A DNA stretch of 64,000 bases from Phreatobacter sp. (GTDB lineage: Bacteria > Pseudomonadota > Alphaproteobacteria > Rhizobiales > Phreatobacteraceae): contig NZ_JAUYFA010000052.1 of the NCBI RefSeq assembly GCF_030691135.1, forward strand, positions 1 to 64,000. The letters run 5' to 3'. Position 1 is the first letter of the stretch; every line of letters starts with the position of its first letter. A program made the translations under genes and the position numbers. This document shows positions 2,016 to 56,973 of this stretch, one piece after another. The notes below the pieces were generated by a model, which was given only the letters and a program-made list of their open reading frames with translations, made no database searches and was not told the origin of the DNA.

Positions 2016-2897
2016 TTATTTGTAGGGCAGCTTCGACCACTGGAGATCAACCGAAAGGCTGGCGACGACGCTGTGGCCGCACCAGTTGGACCGGCCCGAA
2101 CCGGTGAACACGCCGCGATAGTCGCCGGTGGTGGCGAAGCACTGCTGCGAGGTCAGGTTGGTGCCGTGGTAGCGCAGGTCCAGGGTCAGGAAGTCCTTGT
2201 AGGTCCACGACACGCCGGCGTTCCAGTAGACGTAATCCTGGATGTTGAAGTCGGCGCCGGGGCCGAACACCGTCGTCGTGCCGAGCCAGTAGTGGCCGAC
2301 CGCACCCGAGATCGCGAAGTCGTTCGGCAGCTTCACCTTGGCGTTGAGTTCGCCGTAGGTGCCGGCCGCCCCGGTGCCGAGCCAGTTGGGGGCGAAGTAG
2401 AGGGCCGCGCCGACATTGACCGTCGGGGTGATGTCGTAGCCGACCTTGCCGTAGACCTCGACGAAGTTGGTCCGCGCCGGCGCCCAGACGCCGTTGAGGG
2501 CCGGTGCCGCCAGGCCGGCGGTCACGAACTGCCGCTCGTTCGGATAGAGATAGTACATCACGCCGAGGTCGAAGGTCGCATCGCCGACGACCGGCCGGAT
2601 GCCGGCATAGAGGTCGACTTCGCCGACCGGCCGGTTCGGCAGCTTCGTCGTCCAGAAGGCGGCGCCGGCATAGAGCCAGCCGTAGCGGGCCTCGCCGTAG
2701 ACGTTGATCGCGGGGCCACGGGCCGACTGCGAGATGCCGCGGAAATTGTAATCCGAGAGAACCTTGCCGCCGAAGGCGAAGTCGAAGGCCCAGGGGGCCG
2801 GCGCGGCGATCGGCGCCGGTGTGGCGACGTCGGCGGCAAAAGCCTGGCTTCCCAGGGTCGCGGCAAGAAGGCCCGTCAGCATCGTTTTGCGGAACAT
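2016..2897 (-). CDS. TorF-family putative outer-membrane porin
   Basis: A 293-residue outer-membrane beta-barrel protein of the TorF/TIGR02001 family of putative porins common in Hyphomicrobiales. The signal peptide is clear: MFRKTMLTGLLAATLGSQAFA followed by ADVATPAP. The mature N-terminus has the family hallmark FGGKVLSDYNFRGISQS. Alternating aromatic strands follow (RYGWLYAGAAFW, VGYDITPTVNVGAALYFAP), ending in an amphipathic strand, SVDLQWSKLPYK. The ATG at 2897 is used rather than one 36 bp upstream because it begins the signal peptide. It is single-copy with its own terminator, so it is probably monocistronic. The transported solute is unknown. Confidence 0.85.
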   Translation of the reverse strand: MFRKTMLTGLLAATLGSQAFAADVATPAPIAAPAPWAFDFAFGGKVLSDYNFRGISQSARGPAINVYGEARYGWLYAGAAFWTTKLPNRPVGEVDLYAGIRPVVGDATFDLGVMYYLYPNERQFVTAGLAAPALNGVWAPARTNFVEVYGKVGYDITPTVNVGAALYFAPNWLGTGAAGTYGELNAKVKLPNDFAISGAVGHYWLGTTTVFGPGADFNIQDYVYWNAGVSWTYKDFLTLDLRYHGTNLTSQQCFATTGDYRGVFTGSGRSNWCGHSVVASLSVDLQWSKLPYK

Positions 2898-3046
2898 CTG
2901 CGTCTCCTGACTGCGGTCGGCGCAGGCCGCCAACCCAAATCACCACATGAACGACACAATGACGCCACATGCGGGCCGGGTGCGACAAGGCAAAAAACCG
3001 GGCAGACGCCGGCAAAATGCCCAAAGAGAATGCAAACGATTCCAAT

Positions 3047-3083
3047 GAAAACCCCCTGTGGCACGGCGGCCACAGGGGGTTTG
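3047..3083 (-). terminator. Terminator of the malate synthase gene
   Basis: An 11-bp stem (CCCCCTGTGGC paired with GCCACAGGGGG) around a 6-nt loop lies about 36 bp after the malate synthase stop. On the minus strand it is followed by TTTT; the other side has TTTG, so it could also stop plus-strand readthrough. Confidence 0.85.
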
Positions 3084-3117
3084 TTAACCAATTTGACCAT
3101 CGCCGCCGATTCGTCGC

Positions 3118-4704
3118 TCAGGCGAGCATGCGATAGGCCGGAAGAGTGAGGAACTCCTCGAAGTCCGGCGCCAGCGACAGCTTGGCGAAGAGAGCGATGG
3201 CCTCGGCGAATCGGCCCTTCTCGAAAGCCTCCGCTCCGACCTCGGCCTTCACCACCTCCATCTCCTCCTTCAGCGCCTTGTCGAAGAAGGCCGGCGTGCA
3301 GGCGATGCCGCCTTCCAGCGCCACGCCATAGGTCGTCCACTGCCAGATCTGCGCCCGCGAGATCTCGGCGGTCGCCGCATCCTCCATCAGGTTGTAGATC
3401 GGCACGGCGCCGCGGCCGCGCAGCCAGGCCTCGATGTACTGGACGCCGACGCGGATGTTCTCGCGGTACCCGGCCTCGTTCCGCGTGCCCTCGTGAACCG
3501 CCAGCAGGTCCTTCTGGCCGACCACGACGTCGTCGCGCTGGCGCGCCACCTGATTCGGCGTCGGCATCAGCCGGTCGAAGGCTTCCATCGCCACCGGCAC
3601 GAGGTCCGGGTGGGCGACCCAGGTGCCGTCATGGCCGATGGTCGCCTCGCGCTCCTTGTCGGCCTTCACCTTGGCGAAGGCGGCGGCATTGGCGTCCGGA
3701 TTGTTCTTGATCGGGATCTGCGCCGCCATGCCACCCATCGCGAAGGCGCCGCGCTTGTGGCAGGTCTTCACCAGGAGTTCGGCATAGGCCTTCAGGAAGG
3801 CCTTGCTCATCACCACCTGGCCACGGTCGGGCAGCACGTAGCTCTGGTTCCGCGCGAGCTTCTTGATGAAGGAGAAGATGTAGTCCCAGCGCCCGGCATT
3901 GAGGCCGGCCATGTGGTCCTTCAGTTCGAACAGGATCTCGTCCATCTCGAAGGCCGCCGGCAGCGTCTCGATCAGCACGGTCGCCTTGATCGTGCCCTTG
4001 GGGATGCCGAGCTTGTCCTGGGCATGGACGAAGACATCGTTCCACAGCCGCGCCTCGAGATGGCTCTCCATCTTCGGCAGATAGAAATAGGGGCCCGAGC
4101 CCTGGGCCAGCGCCGCCTTGGCGTTGTGGAAGAGGTAGAGACCGAAGTCGAACAGCGAACCCGACATCTCCTCGCCGTCGACATGCATGTGAACTTCCGG
4201 CAGGTGCCAGCCGCGCGGCCGCGGAATGATGACGGCGACCTTGTCCTTCATCGCATAGGACTTGCCGCTGTTCGGGTCGGTGAAGGCGAGCGTGCCGGCC
4301 CAGCGATCCCTGAGGTTGATCTGGCCCTCGATCTGGTTGGACCAGGTCGGCGAATTGGCGTCCTCGAAATCGGCCATGAAGCACTTGGCGCCGCAGTTCA
4401 GCGCGTTGATGACCATCTTGCGGTCGACCGGGCCGGTGATCTCGACACGGCGGTCCTGCAGATCGGCGGGGATCGGCGCGACGCTCCAGGCGCCGTCACG
4501 GATATGCTTGGTCTCCGGCAGGAAGTCGGGAAGGGCGCCGGCGTCGAACTGCTTCTGCCGTTCGGCGCGCAGTTTCAGCAGGCGCTTGCGCGTCTCGTTG
4601 AACGTGCGCTGGAGGTCGACCACGAAGGCCACGGCCTCCGGGCTGAGGATCTCGTCATAGCGCGGGCCCATGGCCCCCTTGATGGTGACGCCGGTCGTGG
4701 TCAT
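3118..4704 (-). CDS. aceB: Malate synthase A
   Basis: This 528-residue enzyme condenses glyoxylate with acetyl-CoA to give malate and CoA, in the glyoxylate shunt and in glycolate assimilation. The malate synthase signature KDHMAGLNAGRWDYIF is at residues 262-277. Other family blocks are CFMADFEDANSPTW (108-121), which carries metal/substrate acids, and PRPRGWHLPEVHM. Length matches the A-type (about 530 residues), not the ~720-residue G-type. It is transcribed alone, with a strong terminator after it and an inverted repeat in the promoter region. Its position next to glcDEF fits a shared role: glycolate oxidase makes the glyoxylate that this enzyme consumes. Confidence 0.96.
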   Translation of the reverse strand: MTTTGVTIKGAMGPRYDEILSPEAVAFVVDLQRTFNETRKRLLKLRAERQKQFDAGALPDFLPETKHIRDGAWSVAPIPADLQDRRVEITGPVDRKMVINALNCGAKCFMADFEDANSPTWSNQIEGQINLRDRWAGTLAFTDPNSGKSYAMKDKVAVIIPRPRGWHLPEVHMHVDGEEMSGSLFDFGLYLFHNAKAALAQGSGPYFYLPKMESHLEARLWNDVFVHAQDKLGIPKGTIKATVLIETLPAAFEMDEILFELKDHMAGLNAGRWDYIFSFIKKLARNQSYVLPDRGQVVMSKAFLKAYAELLVKTCHKRGAFAMGGMAAQIPIKNNPDANAAAFAKVKADKEREATIGHDGTWVAHPDLVPVAMEAFDRLMPTPNQVARQRDDVVVGQKDLLAVHEGTRNEAGYRENIRVGVQYIEAWLRGRGAVPIYNLMEDAATAEISRAQIWQWTTYGVALEGGIACTPAFFDKALKEEMEVVKAEVGAEAFEKGRFAEAIALFAKLSLAPDFEEFLTLPAYRMLA

Positions 4705-46792: not shown

Positions 46793-48112
46793 TCAGTTCA
46801 GGAATTCTGGCGAGACGAGGCTCGGCAGGAACAGCGTCACCTTGGGCCAGACGATGATCAGCGCCAGCACCATGAACAGCGGGATCAGCATGATCGCCGT
46901 ATCCTTGATCGCATCGCGCATGCGCATCCCCGCGACGGCGCAGGCGATCATCAGACAGAGCCCGTAAGGCGGTGTGACGAGGCCGAAGGCCAGCGAGACG
47001 ATGCCGATCATGGCGAAATGGACCGGGTCCATCTCCACCGCCTTCGCCAGCGGCTGCAGGATCGGCCCGCAGATGATGATGGCGGGGATGGCGTCGAGGA
47101 AACAGCCGACGATGAGAAACACCGCGGCGATGAAGAAGCCGGTGGCGATGAAGCCCATCTGCCAGGCCGAGACGCCGGTCAGGATGGCCTCGGGGATCTT
47201 GTAATAGGCCAGCAGCCAGCCGAAGCAGCTCGCCGTGCCGACGCAGAACAGGATCACGCCGGTAAGCCGGCCGGTATCGAGAAGCGCGCCATAGAGCCCC
47301 TTGAGGTCCATCTCGCGGTAGACGACGAAGGACAGGACGCCGGCATAGAGCACCGCGATGGCGGCCGATTCAGTGGCGGTGAACCAGCCGAAGATCTTGC
47401 CGCCGATGATGATGCCCGGGGTGAGCAGCGCCAGGAAGGAATGGGCGCAGGCGCAGAGCAGGGCCCGCCAGGTCTCGCGCGGATAGGTCGGATAGCCGCG
47501 CTTGACGGCATAGACGTGGACGGTCGCCATCTGTGCGCCGGCGATGAGGATGCCAGGGATGATACCCGCGAGGAACAGGGCGCCGATCGAGGTCGTGAGG
47601 ATGCCGCCCCAGACGATCATCAGGATGGAGGGCGGGATGATGACGGCGAGCACCGCCGAGACCGCGGTGATGGCGACCGAGAAGGAGTCATCGTAGCCCT
47701 CGCGGCGCTGGGCTTCGATGAAGATCTTCGATTGGCTGGCGGCGTCTGCCGTGGACGAACCGGAAATCCCGGCGAAGAACAATGACAGCACCACATTGAT
47801 CTGGGCGAGCCCGCCCGGCCAGTGGCCGACCATGGTGCGCGACAGCTTCAGCAGGCGGTCGGTGATGCCGCCGATATTCATCAGGTTGGCAGTGAGCAGG
47901 AAGAACGGCACCGCCAGCAGGATGAAGGAATTGAAGGCGTTGAAGCTCTCCGACATGAGCGTCACGGTGTCGAGCCGCGGTTCGATCATCAGGATCGGCA
48001 GGCAGGCGAGGCCGAGGGCGAAGGCCACCGGCACGCGCAGCGCCAGGAGGGCGAAAAAGGCTCCGAACAGGACGAAGGCCGCCTGGCCGGATGTGAGCAC
48101 TGCGCCGGTCAT
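46793..48112 (-). CDS. dctM: TRAP transporter large permease, DctM type
   Basis: A 439-residue, roughly 12-helix membrane protein, the large subunit of a TRAP transporter driven by a sodium gradient. FNSFILLAVPFFLLTANLMN (about 62-81), LFFAGISGSSTADAAS with the conserved G-S-S-x-A-D signature and PPSILMIVWGG are DctM hallmarks. The start at 48112 overlaps the dctQ stop by 4 bp (ATGA), and in-frame sequence upstream of it is out of register with dctQ. It pairs with DctQ and receives substrate from the binding protein. Confidence 0.94.
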   Translation of the reverse strand: MTGAVLTSGQAAFVLFGAFFALLALRVPVAFALGLACLPILMIEPRLDTVTLMSESFNAFNSFILLAVPFFLLTANLMNIGGITDRLLKLSRTMVGHWPGGLAQINVVLSLFFAGISGSSTADAASQSKIFIEAQRREGYDDSFSVAITAVSAVLAVIIPPSILMIVWGGILTTSIGALFLAGIIPGILIAGAQMATVHVYAVKRGYPTYPRETWRALLCACAHSFLALLTPGIIIGGKIFGWFTATESAAIAVLYAGVLSFVVYREMDLKGLYGALLDTGRLTGVILFCVGTASCFGWLLAYYKIPEAILTGVSAWQMGFIATGFFIAAVFLIVGCFLDAIPAIIICGPILQPLAKAVEMDPVHFAMIGIVSLAFGLVTPPYGLCLMIACAVAGMRMRDAIKDTAIMLIPLFMVLALIIVWPKVTLFLPSLVSPEFLN

Positions 48113-48684
48113 AGGTTGAGCGTCCCTGCTTCGATGTCGCTGATGGCCGGCTTCACCGGCGGCGCCTTGCGGCCGAGTGCGATCAGCACGTCGTCCCACA
48201 TCTGCTCACCGAGGAAGACGATCCATGTGACGCCCATCAGCGGCCAGGGCAGGTGGATGAGCCAGAGCGGGAGGTCGGCAAGTTCCGAGGTCCGGAACCA
48301 GGCGAACTGGACGAACTTGGTGCCGGCGAAGACGAAGACGCAGGCGAGCACGAGCGTGCCGATGCGCCCGACCAGCCGCGCCACCGCCTCGCCGCGGGGC
48401 GGCAGTTCCGGCATGACGTCGACCTCGAAATGGGTCGATTCCCGGACGCCGATCATGGCGCCGATCGAGATGGTCCAGATGAACAGGAAGCGTGCCATCT
48501 CCTCGGTCCAGATATAGCTCGGGATCAGCGCGGTATGGCGCGAGAAGATCTGCAGGCTCACCGGGATGATCAGGATGGCGACGGAGGCCACGACGAGATG
48601 GGACAGGAGGCTCGCATAGGCCGCCGTGAACCGCCGCCAGAGGCTCGGTGCCTCCCCGACGGCAGGACTGTCGGACGGGGTCAT
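48109..48684 (-). CDS. dctQ: TRAP transporter small permease, DctQ type
   Basis: A 191-residue, four-helix membrane protein. WTEEMARFLFIWTISIGAMIG (split, about 69-89) is the DctQ signature with E-x-x-R-x-x-F-x-W. The start MTPSDSPAVGEAPS at 48684 is chosen over an extension running back into the intergenic region. It follows the binding-protein gene by 91 bp and overlaps dctM. Confidence 0.9.
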   Translation of the reverse strand: MTPSDSPAVGEAPSLWRRFTAAYASLLSHLVVASVAILIIPVSLQIFSRHTALIPSYIWTEEMARFLFIWTISIGAMIGVRESTHFEVDVMPELPPRGEAVARLVGRIGTLVLACVFVFAGTKFVQFAWFRTSELADLPLWLIHLPWPLMGVTWIVFLGEQMWDDVLIALGRKAPPVKPAISDIEAGTLNL

Positions 48685-48775
48685 GTTTCGCTTTCGAAGG
48701 ACGATGGAACGGCGCTTGGGCGCCCGAACGGGCCGGCTCGCCGCGCCATGGCAGCGGGCCGGCCCGACGATTTTA

Positions 48776-49810
48776 TCAAACGCCGCTGACTTGGCCGAAG
48801 ATGGCTTCGGCGCCGATTTCCCTGGCATAGGCGGCCATGACCGGGTCGGTCAGCTTCTTCATCGCGTCGCGTTCCTCGAACACGATGCGCTTCAGGCGGC
48901 CGGCCTTCTCCAGCGTTTCCAGCTTGGCGCTGTCCTCGCTGGATTCCACCTGGCGGCCGAATTCGCCGGCCTCGGCACCGGCGGTGACGATCGCGTCCTG
49001 CAGGTCCTTCGGCAGCGAGGTCAGCATCTTCATGGAGAAGCAGATCGGGCGGATCGACACCGCGTGCTGGGTCAGCACGAGGTTCGGCGCCACCTCGAAG
49101 AACTTCATCGCTTCGACGCCGGCCGCCTCGTTTTCGCCGGCCTGGATCACGCCGTTCTGGATGGCGTTGTAGACCTCGTTATAGGCGATGACGGTCGGCG
49201 ACATGCCGGCCGCGGCGAAGGTACGGGACCAGATCGGCGCACCCTGGACGCGGATCTTCAGGCCGCGCATCTCGGCGAGGTTCTTGAACGGCTTGTTGGC
49301 GAAGATGTTGCGGGTACCGCCACCGGCATGGCCGATGAGACGCACGCCCGCCCGCCGTTCCACTTCGTCCTCGATGGGCTTCAGCACTTTCGCCTTGATC
49401 ACGTTGCCCATATGAGCCACGTCGCGGAAGACGAAGGGCGCATCGATGAAGGGCGCCGCGCGTGCGAAGGTCGACATGTGGGCGGGCGAGACGATGGCAT
49501 AGTCCACCGCGCGGCCCTGGGCCATATATTCGAAATACTGCTTCTCGAGACCGAGCGAGGAGTTCTTGTGCAGGTTGAAATTGACCGGCTTGCCATAGAG
49601 CGCCTTGACCCGCTCCTCGAACCGCACCAGCGCCTTGGTGAAGGCGTGGTCGTCGTTGAACTGGACGGCGCCGTTCAGCGTGATCGGAGCCTGGGCGCGC
49701 AGCACGGTCGGGCTGGCCACGAGGGCGGCGGCGGAGACGGCGCCGAGACCGAGGATGACCTGCCTGCGTTCCACGCCGATGCGCGTGTCGATGTCCTTGC
49801 GAATGCTCAT
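48776..49810 (-). CDS. dctP: TRAP transporter substrate-binding protein, DctP type
   Basis: A 344-residue periplasmic receptor. An N-terminal Arg-Arg signal (VERRQVILGLGAVSAAALVA, ending VLRAQA) suggests Tat or Sec export. GRAVDYAIVSPAHMSTFAR and GLKIRVQGAPIWSRTFAAAGMSP (split, about 185-205) are DctP features; the Arg in KIRVQ binds the substrate carboxylate. YNEVYNAIQNGVIQAGENE is the common family motif. GGAGG precedes the start by 8 bp. It is first in dctP-dctQ-dctM-SDR. The substrate is a carboxylate or similar anion, not further defined. Confidence 0.92.
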   Translation of the reverse strand: MSIRKDIDTRIGVERRQVILGLGAVSAAALVASPTVLRAQAPITLNGAVQFNDDHAFTKALVRFEERVKALYGKPVNFNLHKNSSLGLEKQYFEYMAQGRAVDYAIVSPAHMSTFARAAPFIDAPFVFRDVAHMGNVIKAKVLKPIEDEVERRAGVRLIGHAGGGTRNIFANKPFKNLAEMRGLKIRVQGAPIWSRTFAAAGMSPTVIAYNEVYNAIQNGVIQAGENEAAGVEAMKFFEVAPNLVLTQHAVSIRPICFSMKMLTSLPKDLQDAIVTAGAEAGEFGRQVESSEDSAKLETLEKAGRLKRIVFEERDAMKKLTDPVMAAYAREIGAEAIFGQVSGV

Positions 49811-50275
49811 TGCGTTTCCTCCGGGGTTTTCATGCACTCTTGCAGTGCGCCCATGTTGTCCTGGGTCAGGCCAAGAGTATGTCAGAACCATCCGGGGCCG
49901 GACAATTGCAAAAGCCCATGTTGCGGCGCGAATTTAAATGGATTTATATCGCATCGCATCATGTGATTATTGTGCAGCGCACAACAAGTCCGCCGCGCAT
50001 GAGACTGGAGACTTCTGCCCTCGCTGGCATGATGCGGTGGTTGGTCCTCCCCGATGGCTCGGGGCAATCTGCCGCAGTGCCGGGGGCCTCGAAGATAACC
50101 CTTCCGTAGCGGATTTTCCCTAAGGATGGGACGAAACCGCTGTGCGAATAGCCCGGAAATTCGGTTTATCGGCGATGTTGGCGGCGTGCGAATGGCTATA
50201 GCGGTTCACCATGACGATTAAGGACGCGTCCATATTGTCCGGCCGGCCAGCCCGTTCGCTGCTAGTGTCGTAGCA
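49811..50275. other. Divergent intergenic region between dctP and the ACP cluster
   Basis: This 465-bp gap holds no credible gene. It is locally AT-rich around 49930-49975 and must contain the dctP promoter (leftward) and the promoter of the GNAT/ACP operon (rightward). A 15-bp dyad, TTGTGC-AGC-GCACAA, at 49970-49984 is the clearest site; it lies 160 bp from dctP and about 290 bp from the rightward gene. Confidence 0.6.
49970..49984. promoter_or_regulatory. Perfect dyad upstream of dctP
   Basis: TTGTGC and GCACAA are exact complements around AGC. The size and spacing fit a dimeric repressor such as a GntR- or IclR-family protein. No such regulator gene is adjacent. Confidence 0.4.
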
Positions 50276-51115
50276 ATGCTGGAGGCGATCGGACGCGACA
50301 CAATGGGGGAGGCGCTGGCGCTCTTGGCGCGCGGTTTTCCTGTGCGCGCGGCGCCCTTTTGGGTGGCCGGGCTCGATCGGCTGTCCGCCTTTCACGACGC
50401 CCAGGGCCTCGGCCCCGTCGGCCAGATCATGCGGGTCAAAGGTGAAGCCGTCGGCGTGATACTGACGATGCGCAGCCGCCGCGAGCCGGCCGATGGATCT
50501 CCACCGCAGGCCGTCGTCAATCTGTCGAGCTGGTATGTTGACGAGCGCTTTCGCCTGATGGCGCCGCGCATGTTGCAGAAGGTGCTCGCCGAGACGGTCG
50601 ACACCTTCACAGACCTGACCCCGAGCCCTCCCGTCACCGACATGATCGGTCGCTTCGGCTTCGTCCGTTGCCATGACGGCGGCGCCGTCTTTGCCCTTCC
50701 CGTCCAGGCTCTCCAGATGGGTCCGGGACAGATCGTGCCGGTCGATACCGTCGCGCTCGACGCTGCTGTCGGCCGCATCGTCGAGGATCACCGGCGCCTC
50801 GGTTGCCTCGCCTGCGCCCTGGTCGAGCCGGATGGCAGCCGCCCACTCGTCTTCAGTACCGGCCGACGCAAGGGCCTGCCCGCCGCACGGCTCGTCTATG
50901 CCGACGACGTTGCGTCAGTTCGCCGCAACATGGGGCCGATCGCGCGTTTCCTGCTGTCGCGCGGCATGATTTGCCTCGAAATGCCCACCGATCGGGCTGA
51001 TACCCCTCCCGGTTCGTGGTTCTCGACCCGGTCCCGTCCGACATTCGTCCGCGGCGCCAGCCCTGCGGTGGCGATCGATCACGCCTATTCGGAATTTGTT
51101 TTCCTTCGCATCTGA
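50276..51115 (+). CDS. GNAT-like protein at the head of the ACP/ligase/decarboxylase unit
   Basis: A 279-residue cytoplasmic protein of uncertain family. The first half looks GNAT-like: GQIMRVKGEAVGVILTMRSR (about 49-68) resembles the central strands, VNLSSWYVDERFRLMAPRML (82-101) the strand and helix around the acyl-CoA site, and VTDMIGRFGFVRCHDG the C-terminal motif. The clear R/Q-x-x-G-x-G loop is absent. The second half (about 150-279) is unassigned. It starts 31 bp before the ACP gene, so an acyl- or aminoacyl-transfer role with the carrier protein is plausible. No strong ribosome site is seen; ATG at 50303 is an alternative start. Confidence 0.6.
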   Translation: MLEAIGRDTMGEALALLARGFPVRAAPFWVAGLDRLSAFHDAQGLGPVGQIMRVKGEAVGVILTMRSRREPADGSPPQAVVNLSSWYVDERFRLMAPRMLQKVLAETVDTFTDLTPSPPVTDMIGRFGFVRCHDGGAVFALPVQALQMGPGQIVPVDTVALDAAVGRIVEDHRRLGCLACALVEPDGSRPLVFSTGRRKGLPAARLVYADDVASVRRNMGPIARFLLSRGMICLEMPTDRADTPPGSWFSTRSRPTFVRGASPAVAIDHAYSEFVFLRI

Positions 51116-51146
51116 CAATGCCGCCGGACCTGTGGGGGAGAGAACC

Positions 51147-51404
51147 GTGACCACCGAGACGATCGATGTTGCCGAGGAGATCAGTGCCTTCCTCAGGGGG
51201 CGGTTCCCGGCGCTCGCCAACCAGCCGCTGTCGGCCGAGACGCAGCTCCTCGCCAGCGGGGCCATCGATTCCCTCGGCATCCTCGAACTCGTCACCTTCC
51301 TCGACGAGCGCTTCGGCATCCAGCTGATGGACGACGATTTCGATCCGGCCAATTTCGAGACGCTAGGCCAGCTTGTCGCCTTCGCGGAGCGCCAGCGCGC
51401 GTGA
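51147..51404 (+). CDS. Acyl carrier protein
   Basis: An 85-residue carrier protein. The phosphopantetheine attachment Ser42 is in the motif GAIDSLGILELVTFLDE (about 38-54), the D-S-L form. Surrounding acidic helices and the ending FDPANFETLGQLVAFAERQ are typical. It starts with GTG at 51147 behind GGGGGAGAG and ends in a GTGA overlap with the ligase gene, so the ligase is its likely loading enzyme. It is not the fatty-acid-synthesis AcpP, which would lie by fabD/fabG/fabF. Confidence 0.9.
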   Translation: MTTETIDVAEEISAFLRGRFPALANQPLSAETQLLASGAIDSLGILELVTFLDERFGIQLMDDDFDPANFETLGQLVAFAERQRA

Positions 51405-52933
51405 CGCCTCCGCCCTATCTCCTCCATCATCTCCTCGAACAGGCTGCCGCGTCCGGGGCGGAGCGCATCGCCGTGGTCGATGGCGACCGGCAGGCCACCT
51501 ATGCCGACCTCCTCGCCGCCGCCCGCCGTTGCGCCCGTCTCTGCCGCGGCCACGGCCTGGCGCACGGCGACCGCGTCGCGATCTTTCTGCCGAAGAGCCT
51601 CGAGGAATGCTGGGCGATCTTCGGCATCGCCATGGCCGGCGGCGTCTTCGTCCCCGTCAACGCCCTCCTGAAGCCCGCCCAGGTCCGTCACATCGTCGCC
51701 GATTGCGGCGCCAGGATCGTGTTGACCCGCAGCGACCAGGTCGCCGCCCTCGCCGAGGCCTGCGCCGGCCTCGATGACATCCGGATCATCGCGGTCGATG
51801 CCCTGGTCGATGACGGCGGCGTCGCTGCGGCGCTTCCCTCTGCCGGCATCGGCGAGGATCTCGCCGCCATCCTCTACACGTCGGGCTCCACCGGGCGGCC
51901 CAAGGGCGTGATGCTGAGCCACCGCAATCTCCTCGCCGGCACGCGCATCGTGCGCACCTATCTCGGCATCACCGAGGACGAGCGCATCCTCTCGGTGCTT
52001 CCCTTCAGCTTCGACTATGGCCTCAACCAGTTGCTGACCGCAGTCGAACAGCGCGCCCGGATCGTGCTGCTGACCTTCCAGTTCGGTGCCGACATCGTGA
52101 AAGCCATCGTCGAGCACGGCATCACCGGGCTCGCCGGCGTTCCCACCATCTGGGCCATCCTCACCCGGGCGACGCCGATGCTGGCGAAAACCCCGCTGCC
52201 GACCCTGCGCTACATCACCAATTCCGGCGGCGCCGTGCCCTCCGAAACCGTGGCGCGGCTGCGCGAGAAGCTGCCCGGCACGCGGATCTTCCTCATGTAT
52301 GGCCTCACCGAGGCTTTCCGCTCCACCTTTCTGCCGCCCGAAGAGGTGGAGCGCCGCCCGACCTCCATCGGCAAGGCCATCCCCGAATGCGAGATGCTGG
52401 TGGTGACCGCCGACGGCCGCCGGGCCGCGCCCGGGGAGCCGGGAATCCTCGTCCACCGTGGTCCGACCGTGTCGCTCGGCTACTGGAACCGGCCCGATGC
52501 GACGGCCGAGGTCCTACGGCCCCATCCGTTCCGGCCGGCCGTCGAGGGGGGCGAGACCGTCTGCTGGTCTGGTGACCTGGTGACGGAGGACGCGGAGGGC
52601 TTCCTCTATTTCGTCGCCCGCAACGACGCGATGATCAAATCCTCCGGCCATCGCATCAGCCCGACCGAGGTCGAGGAATGCCTGATGGCCATGGGCCATT
52701 TCCAGCAGGTCGCGGTGATCGGCCTGCCCGACCCCTTCGCCGGGCAGAAGGTCCATGCCGTGGCGGTGGCCCTCGGCCCGGTCGATGGCGCTTCGGTTCT
52801 GCAGGCCGCCGCCGCCGAACTGCCGCCCTATATGGTGCCGCGCGAGCTCGAGCTGGTCGAGCGCCTGCCCGTCACCCCCAACGGCAAGGTCGATTATGTC
52901 GGTCTCGTGCGCGAGCGTAGCCATGGCGCCTGA
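51401..52933 (+). CDS. AMP-forming acyl/aminoacyl-ACP ligase, exosortase A-associated type
   Basis: A 510-residue ANL-superfamily adenylating enzyme. The phosphate loop is ILYTSGSTGRPKG (about 165-177), the substrate/ATP motif MYGLTEAFRSTFLPPEE (about 299-315), GDLVTEDAEGFLYFVAR holds the ribose-binding Asp, NDAMIKSSGHRISPTEVEE is the hinge, and the catalytic Lys is in VTPNGKVDY. It resembles the ligases found with exosortase A (TIGR03098). The GTG start overlaps the ACP gene by 4 bp, and the decarboxylase gene overlaps its end by 11 bp. It probably activates a carboxylic or amino acid and loads it on the ACP. Confidence 0.88.
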   Translation: MTPPPYLLHHLLEQAAASGAERIAVVDGDRQATYADLLAAARRCARLCRGHGLAHGDRVAIFLPKSLEECWAIFGIAMAGGVFVPVNALLKPAQVRHIVADCGARIVLTRSDQVAALAEACAGLDDIRIIAVDALVDDGGVAAALPSAGIGEDLAAILYTSGSTGRPKGVMLSHRNLLAGTRIVRTYLGITEDERILSVLPFSFDYGLNQLLTAVEQRARIVLLTFQFGADIVKAIVEHGITGLAGVPTIWAILTRATPMLAKTPLPTLRYITNSGGAVPSETVARLREKLPGTRIFLMYGLTEAFRSTFLPPEEVERRPTSIGKAIPECEMLVVTADGRRAAPGEPGILVHRGPTVSLGYWNRPDATAEVLRPHPFRPAVEGGETVCWSGDLVTEDAEGFLYFVARNDAMIKSSGHRISPTEVEECLMAMGHFQQVAVIGLPDPFAGQKVHAVAVALGPVDGASVLQAAAAELPPYMVPRELELVERLPVTPNGKVDYVGLVRERSHGA

Positions 52934-54209
52934 CGCGACCCTCGCCGACAGGCTCGTTGCCGACCAGTTCGGCGTCGACGGCGCCGATCTCCTGATCGGC
53001 GGCATCCCGGCCCGCGCCCTCGCCGAGCGTTTCGGCACGCCGCTCTTCGCCTATGACGCCGGCCTCATCCGCCGCTCCTACCGCGCCCTCGCGGCAGCCC
53101 TCGCAGGCTTCGCCACCATCCATTACTCGATCAAGGCCAACCCCAACCCGGCCGTCGTGCGGGTGCTCCATGCGGAGGGTGCGGGGATCGAGATCGCCTC
53201 GCTCGGCGAGTTCCACGCCGCGATGGAAGCGGGCGTCGATCCCGCGCAGATCCTCTTCGCCGGCCCGGGCAAGCGCCGCTCCGAACTCGCGGCGGTGATA
53301 TCAGCCGGCATCGGCGAGATTCACCTCGAAAGCCACGAGGAGATGGTCCATGTCGCGGCCATCGGCGCGTCCCTCGGCCGCCGGGTCTGCGTCGCCATCC
53401 GCGTCAATCCCATCGCCGAGGCCCAGGGTGGCGCCATGCGCATGGGCGGCAAGGCCGCGCCCTTCGGCTTCGACGAGGAGGATCTCGACGCGGTCGTCGA
53501 TGCCGTGGCGGCCCATCCCCATCTCGACCTCACCGGCATCCATCTCTTCGCGGGAACGCAGATCCTCGATGCCGCCGTTCTGATCGGCCAGTGGCGCCAC
53601 GGCCTCGCCGTCGCCGGCCGCGCCGCCGCGCGTCTCGGCCGCCCGCTGCGCACCATCGATCTCGGCGGCGGGCTCGGCATCCCCTATTTCGCCGGCGACG
53701 GCACCCTCGACCTCGCCGCGGTCCGGGCCGGCCTGCCGGAACTGATCGCCCTGCGCGACGCCGATCCGCTCATCCGTGACGCCCATGTGCTGGTCGAGCC
53801 CGGCCGCTATCTCGTCGGCGCGTGCGGCGTCTATCTGTCAGCCGTTCTCGCCGCCAAGGTCTCGCGCGGCCAGCGCTTCCTCGTGGTCGACGGCGGCATG
53901 CACCACCATCTCGCCGCCTCCGGCAATCTCGGACAGGTCATCAAGCGCGACTACCCGGTCGCCGCCGCCTCGCGCATGGGTGAGCCGGTGGTCGGTCCGG
54001 CCAGCGTCGTCGGGCCGCTCTGCACGCCGCTCGACACCCTGGCCCGCAAGGTCGAGATGCCGGCCATGGCCGAGGGCGATCTCGTCGCCGTGCTGCAGTC
54101 GGGCGCCTATGGGCCGACCGCCAGTCCGGTCGGCTTTCTCAGCCATCCCGCGCCCGCCGAGGTCCTGGTGGACGCCGGCGCGGCGCAGCTGATTTCACGG
54201 GTTCAGTAG
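52923..54209 (+). CDS. Fold-type III PLP-dependent decarboxylase, exosortase A-associated type
   Basis: A 428-residue decarboxylase of the DapDC/ornithine-decarboxylase family (alanine-racemase fold). PLP Lys71 is in HYSIKANPNP, the phosphate loop is DLGGGLGIPYF (about 246-256), VEPGRYLVGACGVY follows, and the active-site Cys from the second subunit is in GPLCTPLDTL. QSGAYGPTASPVGFLSHP at the C-terminus is close to the exosortase A-associated decarboxylases (TIGR03099). GIHLFAGTQ replaces the more usual GIHCHIGSQ. It probably decarboxylates a diamino acid or an ACP-bound or free amino acid; the product is unknown. Confidence 0.88.
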   Translation: MAPDATLADRLVADQFGVDGADLLIGGIPARALAERFGTPLFAYDAGLIRRSYRALAAALAGFATIHYSIKANPNPAVVRVLHAEGAGIEIASLGEFHAAMEAGVDPAQILFAGPGKRRSELAAVISAGIGEIHLESHEEMVHVAAIGASLGRRVCVAIRVNPIAEAQGGAMRMGGKAAPFGFDEEDLDAVVDAVAAHPHLDLTGIHLFAGTQILDAAVLIGQWRHGLAVAGRAAARLGRPLRTIDLGGGLGIPYFAGDGTLDLAAVRAGLPELIALRDADPLIRDAHVLVEPGRYLVGACGVYLSAVLAAKVSRGQRFLVVDGGMHHHLAASGNLGQVIKRDYPVAAASRMGEPVVGPASVVGPLCTPLDTLARKVEMPAMAEGDLVAVLQSGAYGPTASPVGFLSHPAPAEVLVDAGAAQLISRVQ

Positions 54210-54892
54210 ACCGAGGCCTTGCCGAGCGCGGCGCCCTTGGCGGCGAGCGTCGCATCGACCCAGCTGCGGTCGAGCGTGCCGGCGGCGATGGCCTTCATCG
54301 TCGCATCCTCGGCGGCGAGCTGCTTGCGGGCGAGGGCGGCGACGGCCGCCACCTCCGCCCGCGGCACGGCGAGCACCCCGTCGGCATCGCCGACGATGAG
54401 ATCGCCGGGCGCGACATGCTGGCCGCCGATCACCGCACCCGTGTTGATCTCGCCGGGGCCGTCCTTGTAGGGGCCGCGATGGGTCACGCCGGCGGCGAAG
54501 ACGGGCAGGCTCATCGCCGCGATGGCGTCGGAATCGCGGATCGCGCCGTCGATGACGATGCCTGCCACGCCGTTTTTCATCGCGATCGTCGCCATGATCT
54601 CGCCGATGATGGCATTGGTCAGCGCGCCGCCGGCCTCCACCACCACGACGTCACCGGGGCCGGCCATGTCGATGGCCTTGTGGACGAGGAGGTTGTCGCC
54701 GGGCCGGGTCCTGACCGTCAGCGCGAAGCCGAGCAGCGGCGTGCCGTCATGCATCGGCCGCAGCGACGGGCCAGCGGCGAAGAGCCGGCCCATATTGTCG
54801 CTGAGCAGCGCCGTCGGGATGCCGGCGAGCAGCGCCGTCAGCGCGGGATCGTTGGCATGGGGCTTGGGCAGGACCTGGAAACCGAGGGACAT
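54203..54892 (-). CDS. RraA-like / 4-hydroxy-4-methyl-2-oxoglutarate aldolase family protein
   Basis: A 229-residue member of the RraA/HMG-CHA aldolase family. GEIMATIAMKNGVAGIVIDG (about 96-115), IRDSDAIAAMSLPVFAAGVTHRGP (split) and PGDLIVGDADGVLAVPR (about 161-177) are the class II pyruvate aldolase segments, with metal- and pyruvate-binding Arg and Asp. It may be a pyruvate-type aldolase or oxaloacetate decarboxylase; RNase E inhibition is less likely outside gammaproteobacteria. The last 7 bp overlap the convergent decarboxylase gene. Confidence 0.88.
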   Translation of the reverse strand: MSLGFQVLPKPHANDPALTALLAGIPTALLSDNMGRLFAAGPSLRPMHDGTPLLGFALTVRTRPGDNLLVHKAIDMAGPGDVVVVEAGGALTNAIIGEIMATIAMKNGVAGIVIDGAIRDSDAIAAMSLPVFAAGVTHRGPYKDGPGEINTGAVIGGQHVAPGDLIVGDADGVLAVPRAEVAAVAALARKQLAAEDATMKAIAAGTLDRSWVDATLAAKGAALGKASVY

Positions 54893-54905
54893 GGCAGGAG
54901 ACCGA

Positions 54906-55481
54906 TCAGCCGTTGAAGGATTCGATGGCGGCAATGTCGAGCAGGTCAAGCAGGGCGCGCTTCTCGGCTTCGGTCCCGGACCCCTCGAGAATGATCAGCG
55001 TCCGCCCGAGCAGCACCTGGATGTTGCCGTCGCGGGAATGGACGGCGGTCTTGCCCTTGAAGCGGAAGACGCGGCCCATGGCGCCGAGCATCTGGGCGTT
55101 GGAGAACAGCGGCGCCAGCTGTGCGATCATCGGCGAATTGGCCAGCACCTGCACGGTGACGTGGCGCTCGCCGATGGAATAGCGGCGCTTGGCGATCAGC
55201 CCGCCGCCGAACATGGCAGCGGCGCTGGCATCCGTCTCCGCCTCGTCGGCGGTCCAGCCGCGCGGCGGGGCGGGCAGGAAGCGCGACAGGCCGGTAGCGC
55301 TGCGCTGCGCCAGAAGCTGGGAGGCGACGTCGAGGGCGGCTTTTGCGGCGACGAGGTCATTGGCCTGATAGGCCTTGCGGGCCTCCTCGATCGCATCGCG
55401 GATATCGTCGGCGAGGGCGGGCGAGGCGAGGGAGAGCGTCGCGGCGATGGCGGCGGCGCGCAGGAGGCGGGTCAGCGTCAT
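54906..55481 (-). CDS. Exported hypothetical protein
   Basis: A 191-residue secreted protein of unknown family. The signal peptide MTLTRLLRAAAIAATLSLASPALA is followed by DDIRDAIEEARKAYQANDLVAAKAALDVA, an amphipathic helical pair resembling one TPR-like unit. The rest is mixed alpha/beta with KRRYSIGERHVTVQVLANSP and a Gly-rich IILEGSGTEAEK. The start at 55481 is used because it begins the signal peptide. It lies 13 bp upstream of the RraA-like gene and so is probably co-transcribed with it. Confidence 0.7.
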   Translation of the reverse strand: MTLTRLLRAAAIAATLSLASPALADDIRDAIEEARKAYQANDLVAAKAALDVASQLLAQRSATGLSRFLPAPPRGWTADEAETDASAAAMFGGGLIAKRRYSIGERHVTVQVLANSPMIAQLAPLFSNAQMLGAMGRVFRFKGKTAVHSRDGNIQVLLGRTLIILEGSGTEAEKRALLDLLDIAAIESFNG

Positions 55482-55623
55482 GGCAGGTTGATCCTCATCG
55501 GCGTTGTCCGGCGCCTTGCCGGAATCGTCAGTCGTCCCCGCCATCGCCTATAGCGGTTCGCCGGCCGATTGACACGCCCCCCTAAAGCGCAGCGGCTCCG
55601 CCGTCCGCTCGGGGTCGCTGCTC

Positions 55624-56838
55624 CTACTCGCTCGCAAGGATCATGTTGCGCACGATGGGATAGACCTGACCTTCCCATTTCCGGCCGCTGAAGACGCCGT
55701 AATGGCCGACGCCCGCCTGCATGTGGTGGCGCTTGCGGAAGGGCTTCAGCTTCGAGGCGAGGTCGTGCGCGGCCACCGTCTGTCCGAGAGAGCAGATGTC
55801 GTCACGTTCGCCCTCGACGGTCAGGAGGGCGGTCCGGCGGATGGCGGAGGGGTCGACGAGAAGTCCCTTGTAGGTCAGTTCGCCCTTCGCGAGCAGCGCC
55901 CGCTGGAAGACCTTGTCGATGGTCTCGAGGTAAAACTCCGCGGTCAGGTCCAGCACGGCGAAATACTCGTCGTAGAAGGTCTGGATCGCCTCGGCCTTGG
56001 CGGTATCGCCGCGGGAGAGATGGCCGTGCAGGTCGAGATGGGCCTTGATGTGCCGCTCCTTGTTCATCATCAGAAAGGCGATGAGCTGGAGAAAGCCCGG
56101 ATAGACGCGCCGGCCGGCCCCGGCGCAGGGCAGGGGCACGGTCGAGATCAGGTTCCTCTCGAACCATTCGTAGGGGTGGCTGAAGGCGAGTTCGTTGACC
56201 TTGGTCGGGTTGATCCGCACGTCGACGGGTCCCGCCATCAGCGTCATGCTGCTCGGCTGGTCCGGATCGCCGGCCTGAGCCATCACCGCGGCGGCGGCGA
56301 GCGCCTGCACGCAGGGCTGGCAGACCGCGACGATGTGCGATCCCGGCCCCATGACATGCAGGAAATCGATGATGTGCTCGACATATTCGTCGAAGCCGAA
56401 CCGGCCCGCCGTCCATGGGACGTCGCGGGCACTGTGCCAGTCCGTAATGAAGACGTCATGGTCCTGCAGCAGGGTCTTCGCGGTGTTGCGCAGCAGCGTC
56501 GCGAAGTGGCCTGACAGCGGTGCCACAAGCAGCACCCTCGGCTGGGTCGCCGTGATGTCCTTGCGGAAGTTCAATAGCGTCCCGAAGGGCGTGACGTGGA
56601 CGGGAACCTCCGTCACCGCCACCTCGCGGTTGCCTACCATGACGCTGGCGATGCCGAAATCCGGGCGCTTATGGGTGACGCCGGCGCGGCCGACCATCTC
56701 CCAGGTCGCCATGAATTCGCGGCCGAGCCGGCTGTCCGCTGCGGAAAGGGCGGGACCGAAAAGGGCACCGGCCATCCGGGCGGCGTCGCGTACGGGCTCG
56801 AACATCCGGCTCTGGAATTCGAACGCGTGGTACAGCAT
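55624..56838 (-). CDS. phaZ: Intracellular polyhydroxyalkanoate depolymerase
   Basis: A 404-residue PhaZ-type depolymerase that mobilises stored polyhydroxybutyrate granules in the cytoplasm. It starts MLYHAFEFQSRMFEPVRDAA, the typical N-terminus. The nucleophile box AVCQPCVQALAAAA has Cys176 in place of Ser, as in Ralstonia PhaZ1-type enzymes. Catalytic Asp is in EGERDDI and His in GVGHYGVFSGRKWE near the C-terminus. It has no signal peptide. It is monocistronic and divergent from the GST gene. PHA storage fits the acetyl-CoA-based metabolism elsewhere in the window. Confidence 0.93.
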   Translation of the reverse strand: MLYHAFEFQSRMFEPVRDAARMAGALFGPALSAADSRLGREFMATWEMVGRAGVTHKRPDFGIASVMVGNREVAVTEVPVHVTPFGTLLNFRKDITATQPRVLLVAPLSGHFATLLRNTAKTLLQDHDVFITDWHSARDVPWTAGRFGFDEYVEHIIDFLHVMGPGSHIVAVCQPCVQALAAAAVMAQAGDPDQPSSMTLMAGPVDVRINPTKVNELAFSHPYEWFERNLISTVPLPCAGAGRRVYPGFLQLIAFLMMNKERHIKAHLDLHGHLSRGDTAKAEAIQTFYDEYFAVLDLTAEFYLETIDKVFQRALLAKGELTYKGLLVDPSAIRRTALLTVEGERDDICSLGQTVAAHDLASKLKPFRKRHHMQAGVGHYGVFSGRKWEGQVYPIVRNMILASE

Positions 56839-56973
56839 GGGGCGTCCAGGGTGGGTCAGGATGCCACCTTGGCATCGATCCAAAAAAAGCTAGTGCACTT
56901 TCTGTTGCACTGCGAGAGTATTCTTTGCGTCGGGCTCTGTGCATCACAGCCGCCGTCGCCGGGGGAGGTTCGG

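Follow-up and report, generated by a model that had tools for sequence, protein, structure and literature searches.

The locus examined here raises the question of what an AMP ligase and a pyridoxal phosphate (PLP) decarboxylase do when their nearest NCBIfam models, TIGR03098 and TIGR03099, are those associated with exosortase A and no exosortase was found in the genome. The two genes lie with genes for a stand-alone acyl carrier protein (ACP) and a GNAT-like protein (gene 1) at positions 50,276 to 54,209 of a 64,000-nucleotide stretch of Phreatobacter sp. DNA (contig NZ_JAUYFA010000052.1), referred to as the window. On balance we favour reading the cassette as a carrier-protein pathway complete in itself, in which the ligase would load the ACP, decarboxylation would take place on the ACP and the GNAT protein would transfer the product. 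A free-standing ACP pathway is the part of this prediction that is well supported by homology and by conserved residues. The triad of ligase, ACP and decarboxylase is known as a kind of machinery, and what is new is the attached tandem GNAT protein and the conserved four-gene unit.

The four genes are on the forward strand, as reported in an earlier sequence-only reading of the locus: gene 1 (50276..51115, 279 aa), the ACP (51147..51404, 85 aa), an ANL-superfamily AMP ligase (51401..52933, 510 aa) and a PLP decarboxylase of alanine-racemase fold (52923..54209, 428 aa). A gap of 31 bp separates gene 1 from the ACP start, and overlaps are confined to the last three genes, as that reading had also claimed. 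The ACP stop and the ligase start share a GTGA overlap, and the decarboxylase ATG at 52923 gives an 11-bp overlap with the ligase end. The domain calls of the sequence-only reading for the ACP (with Ser42 in D-S-L), the ligase and the decarboxylase were upheld by the sequence and by Pfam (PP-binding, AMP-binding and Orn/DAP/Arg decarboxylase, respectively).

The order gene 1-ACP-ligase-decarboxylase was kept in 11 of the 12 Phreatobacter genomes examined, and in the twelfth (G004) the contig stops within the ligase. Since the order is kept across Phreatobacter and recurs in other families and phyla, Agrobacterium and a cyanobacterium also having the identical four genes in a row, the cassette is not a chance association. 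The genome bearing the window comprises 4,218,227 bases and is 99.93% complete. Comparisons were made with forty-six window-side rows (the window, L012-L055 and L067 in our numbering of loci), among which four genomes were entered twice (L013/L023, L015/L024, L016/L026 and L017/L025). Adjacency counts were taken from six-frame hidden Markov model (HMM) searches because our own gene caller left out genes at several loci, L155 and L156 among them, and some of the neighbour assignments depend on that caller.

The ligase, the decarboxylase and the carrier protein

The ligase protein scored 590.5 bits against TIGR03098 (587.2 bits in the six-frame search), under the cut-off of 592.35, and the Symploca relative in L042 scored 636.5 bits. 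When the pocket region alone (157 residues) was compared with solved structures, 3wv4/3wvn came first (E 7.8e-21) among three sequences at E<=1e-10, the third of which was 5jjp, presumably the beta-amino-acid enzyme CmiS6. We take 3wv4/3wvn to be VinN; the PDB table gives just a non-ribosomal peptide synthetase (NRPS), but the residue numbering fits, a single constant offset of 16 in the pocket alignment accounting for VinN Asp230, Ser299, Lys330 and Arg331. The window ligase has D, S, F and R at these positions. The A4 aspartate (VinN Asp230) was D in all 42 window-side rows having a letter there, Arg331 was R in 45/45 rows, and Ser299 was S in 34 and T in 9 of 43 rows; the roles of these VinN pocket residues are as given in excerpts of PMC7756342. 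In a quick tree that included seven of the genome's other AMP ligases, forty-one window-side rows together with L059 were split from those seven with a support of 94, and four of the seven, along with L089 and L094, were on long branches adjoining the window side among the rows listed.

The top solved relative of the decarboxylase was BtrK, the L-glutamyl-[BtrI ACP] decarboxylase, with 276 bits versus 180.5 for the best diaminopimelate decarboxylase. The alignment revealed MHHH, [KR]MGG and CTPxD as common to BtrK and the window enzyme. CTPxD occurred in 46/46 window-side rows and C-T-P in 43/44 rows of the remaining loci, L056-L100 without L067; these loci, apart from L059, are referred to as the exosortase side. 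The genome's separate LysA, on contig C72, reads C-E-S(-x-D) where the window decarboxylase has CTPxD, and the Glu at the Thr position recognises the distal amino group of diaminopimelate (DAP). This LysA exceeded the lysA cut-off of 297.9 bits with 473.5, whereas the window decarboxylase was under it with 272.7 bits; the latter was also under the TIGR03099 cut-off (437.6 versus 478.45 bits), and L071 on the exosortase side scored 608.8. In a quick tree with SH-aLRT support, the window and thirty-five other rows formed one group (99) and forty-three exosortase-side rows another (99). L059, from a planctomycete whose genome has an exosortase, fell outside the latter group, and BtrK, which has a long branch, was attached to the exosortase side, so that its placement is unsure. 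On these characters the window decarboxylase is classed as BtrK-like and not as LysA. The BtrK reaction is as stated in excerpts of PMC7857480.

The scores, the signature residues and the trees all led us to reject an identity as ordinary LysA or fatty acyl-CoA ligase. The sequence-only reading had proposed such trees and held that a position among ordinary decarboxylase and acyl-CoA ligase clades would speak against it; this placement was not seen, both enzymes standing apart from the genome's own LysA and seven other AMP ligases.

The ACP stands alone and has the attachment serine in D-S-L. Its start is best placed at the GTG at 51147, which is preceded by the stretch GGGGGAGAG, while the mechanical open reading frame begins at 51096; the start was selected from the sequence and the Ser42 numbering counts from this GTG. 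The protein scored 26.6 bits against Pfam PP-binding (cut-off 20.8), and its top NCBIfam match was AmcB, the cispentacin ACP, with 46.2 bits, under its cut-off of 80.

Three described systems resemble the triad. BtrI-BtrJ-BtrK of butirosin has in common an ACP-bound acidic amino acid that is decarboxylated, and includes the closest solved relative of the window decarboxylase, but BtrJ is not known to be an ANL ligase and the system has further tailoring enzymes and an aminoglycoside acceptor. The beta-aminoacyl-ACP starter-unit triads of the VinN-VinL-VinO (vicenistatin) and FlvN type share the stand-alone ACP, the VinN-like Asp230/Ser299/Arg331 set and a PLP decarboxylase, which in the Vin system acts after thioester formation. 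The cassette differs in having Phe for Lys330 and in being four genes without a polyketide synthase (PKS) or a VinM, VinK or VinJ equivalent, with a tandem GNAT instead. According to the excerpted text of PMC11284099, thioester formation must come before decarboxylation in the Vin pathway. BolO-BolC-BolN (bolagladins, Burkholderia gladioli) is a proteobacterial case with a proposed aspartate ligase, a free ACP and a BtrK-like decarboxylase; excerpts of PMC7756342 propose that it converts aspartate to beta-alanyl-ACP, and report that deletion of bolN abolished the product and that beta-alanine gave no rescue. It differs in supplying an NRPS with a citrate-primed fatty acid, and a GNAT is not mentioned in those excerpts.

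By analogy, VinN-VinL-VinO and BolO-BolC-BolN are the most likely models for how the triad works. The AMP ligase would attach an acidic amino acid to the ACP through the side-chain carboxyl, and the BtrK-like decarboxylase would then strip the alpha-carboxyl to give beta-alanyl-ACP, or gamma-aminobutyryl-ACP if the substrate were glutamate. The enzymes probably make a carrier-bound omega-amino acid and not a free amine. Production of a free amine from a free amino acid is less favoured, since ACP thioesters are the substrates of VinO and BtrK and the proposed substrate of BolN. The sequence-only reading had allowed for either an ACP-tethered amine or an amino-acyl group; an ACP-tethered amino-acyl pathway, with no exosortase, is the form that homology and the pocket and signature residues support.

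The tandem GNAT protein and its relatives

Gene 1 matched 0 families of Pfam and NCBIfam at E<=0.001. An AlphaFold2 model made with seventeen relatives had a tandem GNAT fold (mean pLDDT 92.1, pTM 0.88), which resembled 3ddd (VIA-align Z 14.6, root-mean-square deviation 4.1 over 242 residues) and 5kf1 (Z 14.2 over 251 residues). The former description of gene 1 as GNAT-like was thereby sharpened to a modelled tandem GNAT, and to this we add that gene 1 is the distinctive part of the cassette and a likely transferase. GNAT enzymes usually bind the pyrophosphate of acyl-coenzyme A (CoA) with a loop after beta 4 of the form [RQ]xxGxG/A. Gene 1 retains Arg93, and the two Gly positions are A/S and R/L/S/Q in 17/17 rows of its alignment (A1). 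Because the canonical GxG loop is absent from these rows, a carrier-protein thioester in place of CoA may cautiously be suggested as the donor. In the last and weaker step of the proposed pathway, the tandem GNAT would move the omega-aminoacyl group from the ACP to an amine of another molecule.

Sixteen of the thirty-five loci L021-L055 had a gene 1 homologue beside the ligase and decarboxylase by six-frame HMM, and L055 had a weak partial match in addition. Thirteen of the sixteen were in the window order; gene 1 followed the decarboxylase in L043 and L048, and likewise in L050, where the contig begins within the ligase. A different GNAT-containing family was located just upstream of the ACP in L047, L051 and L052 (the GNAT domain was shown for the L047 member), and weak relatives of that family with a GNAT domain were downstream in L049 and L053. 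Nine Methylobacterium-type loci (L030, L033, L034, L035, L037, L038, L040, L041 and L054) featured a gene of an 839-aa family near the unit, identified by Pfam in L035 (1207-8134) as circularly permuted ATP-grasp/alpha-E, as well as transglutaminase-like genes (Pfam in L054), and had no gene 1.

Relatives of gene 1 were detected at E<=1e-5 in 14 of 385 sampled alphaproteobacterial genomes, and several are associated with other carrier-protein ligases. A single 1100-aa protein in L122 (548-3853) fuses AMP-binding, PP-binding and gene 1 parts, and the same three parts occur in a row on a Pseudochrobactrum plasmid (L210). In L116, genes for an ACP-like protein, a ligase, a short-chain dehydrogenase/reductase (SDR) and gene 1 are in a row, and L119 has like parts with gene 1 divergent, the ACP-like matches in these two loci being weak at 17.0 and 15.5 bits. 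L118 has a similar layout as judged on gene size only. A gene 1 relative directly follows a gene for an aminoacyl-tRNA synthetase (aaRS)-like ligase in L117 and L188-L191 (5/5 genomes of one genus-level group), and these ligases exceeded the 357-bit cut-off of NF005479, a family of amino acid:[carrier protein] ligases in Rhizobiales. NF005479 ligases load amino acids onto stand-alone carrier proteins. The model matched in sixty-seven genomes, and fifty-one places were read (thirty short loci, twenty regions and L117); in L194, L197 and L200, three of sixteen other regions, a gene 1 relative was located ~2.5-3.2 kb from the ligase. The NF005479 system differs from the cassette in its unrelated ligase fold and the lack of a decarboxylase. 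As relatives of gene 1 recur with three loading chemistries, namely an ANL ligase with a BtrK-like decarboxylase, an ANL ligase with an SDR, and a class II aaRS-like amino acid:carrier-protein ligase, gene 1 is likely to act on the carrier-bound group. A general pairing of gene 1 with the amino acid:carrier-protein ligases was considered and rejected.

In L121 (3662-5679), a PALP and ornithine-cyclodeaminase-like pair is found at a distance of ~2.3 kb from the gene 1 relative. This pair is reminiscent of SbnA and SbnB, which make 2,3-diaminopropionate.

The exosortase connection and rival explanations

The sequence-only reading labelled the two enzymes exosortase-A-type, saw no exosortase or PEP-CTERM protein in the window, and named an exosortase elsewhere in the genome as a finding that would count against a free-standing pathway. 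None was found: searches of the 99.93%-complete genome returned 0 matches to PF09721 (exosortase) and 0 matches at E<=1 to TIGR02595 (PEP-CTERM), the latter being a 24-position model that had matches in 7 of 14 control genomes and was above its cut-off in two. PF09721 was matched in 0/12 Phreatobacter genomes, 0/32 window-side alphaproteobacterial genomes (the twelve Phreatobacter included) and 8/10 window-side genomes of other groups (a cyanobacterium, Nitrospirales, planctomycetes, Chloroflexota and a Myxococcales, whose match was weak at 28 bits for a cut-off of 25.7), many of these genomes being metagenome assemblies without stated completeness. For L056-L100, with L067 counted as window-side, 31/44 genomes had an exosortase; on the exosortase side, which leaves out L059, it was 30/43. 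A ligase and decarboxylase without an exosortase are therefore not rare even there.

An even sample of 385 alphaproteobacterial genomes included fifteen with a TIGR03099 match at E<=1e-95. Ten exceeded the cut-off, and nine of these had an exosortase on the same contig 8-25 kb off, with G317 as the exception. Five were under the cut-off, of which G000, G294 and G243 were without an exosortase, G342 had a weak exosortase match ~1 Mb away and G018 had an exosortase on another contig. In this sample the TIGR03099 cut-off thus divides exosortase-linked from other enzymes rather well, the window falling just outside. The cassette also has its ACP and GNAT genes upstream and in the same orientation as the two enzymes, in contrast to L056-L100, where most ACPs are on the opposite strand. 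With both enzymes under their cut-offs and grouped apart from the exosortase-linked ones, the label exosortase-A-type is misleading, and VinN/VinO, BolO/BolN and BtrK give a better description of the enzymes than a sorting system does. Our literature search found no paper using TIGR03098, TIGR03099 or the phrase 'exosortase A system-associated', and none combining exosortase A, acyl-CoA ligase and pyridoxal-dependent decarboxylase. The analysis detaches two enzyme families from the exosortase label used by databases; the core chemistry of both is probably a carrier-bound omega-amino acid that would be passed to different acceptors by different bacteria.

Several observations weigh against a four-gene carrier-protein pathway of this kind. 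The full-length ligase ranked LgrA first among solved structures and 3wvn next, the rank of LgrA reflecting the sum of its two adenylation domains. The Lys330 position of VinN was Phe in 45/45 window-side rows and the exact substrate may therefore differ; it need not be 3-methylaspartate, and Asp or Glu would be a guess. A wider alignment of gene 1 (A2, seventeen rows) included one Gly of the loop in L118 and a full GxG in L125. Gene 1 was not found in eleven Methylobacterium-type loci (the nine listed above, L036 and L067) or in the forty-four loci of L056-L100 other than L067, and the ligase and decarboxylase therefore work without it elsewhere. No gene 1 relative was found within ~1.5 kb on each side of the thirty best NF005479 loci in Rhizobiales, and in L120, L121, L123, L125 and L127-L129 our HMMs detected neither an ACP nor a ligase in the neighbourhood of the gene 1 relative. 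Lastly, the six flanking window proteins scanned by family (46793-49891 and 54203-56883) were TRAP transporter parts, an RraA-like protein, a poly-hydroxybutyrate (PHB) depolymerase and one protein without a match, with no glycan genes among them.

The GNAT could instead cap the ACP-bound omega-amino acid, N-acylating it with an acyl-CoA, and leave an unlinked enzyme to release the product. Amines are normal acylation targets of GNATs, and the fusion and adjacency described above show no more than that gene 1 relatives act with a carrier protein. There is also a VinM-like precedent, in that the beta-amino acid of the Vin pathway, while bound to the ACP, receives L-Ala on its amino group from a second enzyme, presumably for protection (PMC11284099, excerpts). 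The GxG loop missing in all seventeen A1 rows is however a better fit to a protein-bound thioester donor, with the caveat that two wider relatives carry Gly there, and the four-gene unit contains no release enzyme, so that capping is considered unlikely. The cassette could also be a relict of an exosortase-A glycan locus that later lost its exosortase and is now decaying or minor, for which one may cite the nearest NCBIfam models of both enzymes and the exosortases of 30/43 exosortase-side and 8/10 window-side non-alphaproteobacterial genomes. Reading frames that are intact and identically ordered in 11/12 Phreatobacter genomes, conserved pocket and signature residues and a dedicated GNAT that is missing from the forty-four loci of L056-L100 other than L067 do not fit decay, and the exosortase-free state looks old and stable because none of the thirty-two alphaproteobacterial genomes has an exosortase. 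We regard a relict as improbable.

A third rival is an ordinary fatty acyl-CoA ligase and a DAP or ornithine decarboxylase placed beside an ACP by accident. Both enzymes do belong to very large superfamilies, and TIGR03098 matched at E<=0.001 in twenty-nine places of the genome, but the runner-up ligase reached 281 bits versus 587 for the window ligase, the decarboxylase is under the lysA cut-off and a LysA over it lies elsewhere, and the same four-gene order is seen in Phreatobacter, Agrobacterium and a cyanobacterium. This explanation is already contradicted and is given hardly any weight.

Neighbouring genes, acceptor and related loading systems

On three plasmids, L208 and L214 from Shinella and L213 from Rhizobium (with its ligase region broken over several frames), the cassette is located among or beside polysaccharide genes, namely those for glycosyltransferase, flippase, polysaccharide deacetylase, GumC or VpsF. 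On pSymB of S. meliloti (L209) and in Aureimonas (L215), a gene 1 relative, ligase and decarboxylase lie within glycosyltransferase/O-antigen-ligase loci; no exosortase was among the features listed for the stretches shown, and the whole genomes were not searched. Polysaccharide-deacetylase relatives were found in the Symploca (L042) and Nitrospira (L047) loci and glycosyltransferases in L042 and L044. The scanned flanks of L045 (three), L039 (two) and L043 (two) contained no glycan genes. Judging by such neighbours, the acceptor in Rhizobiaceae and some non-alphaproteobacterial loci may be a surface-glycan amino sugar. A glycan amine is the favoured acceptor in some hosts, and for Phreatobacter it is only a guess. 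In the window, the TRAP transporter (DctM, DctQ and DctP; 46793-49891) is divergent from gene 1, the genes for the RraA-like protein and PHB depolymerase are downstream on the opposite strand, and the six scanned flanks included no PKS or NRPS.

It is conceivable, as a tentative extension, that tandem-GNAT carrier-protein aminoacyltransferases form a family without a name so far, with gene 1 as its founding member, which would serve as a shared exit step for the three unrelated loading routes and, in surface-glycan loci, would place beta-alanyl-like, positively charged amines on sugars. Gene 1 offers a concrete transferase candidate for stand-alone aminoacyl carrier proteins, including those of some Rhizobiales aaRS-like amino acid:carrier-protein ligases.

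The genome bearing the window also encodes a class II aaRS-like amino acid:[carrier protein] ligase of its own outside the window (G000:C79:108274-109182, L187; NF005479 490 bits), and an NF005479 ligase was present in all twelve Phreatobacter genomes. From these matches, amino acids seem to be loaded onto carrier proteins by two independent systems in the Phreatobacter genome. In L197 and L200, an ANL ligase, a further gene of 244-256 aa and the gene 1 relative are located near the amino acid:carrier-protein ligase, as if two carrier-loaded units had been combined. A DUF1839 gene follows the amino acid:carrier-protein ligase in all four Rhizobiales loci, out of the thirty best, whose downstream proteins were scanned (L162, at 2415-3419, L163, L173 and L176) and is a candidate partner of that system.

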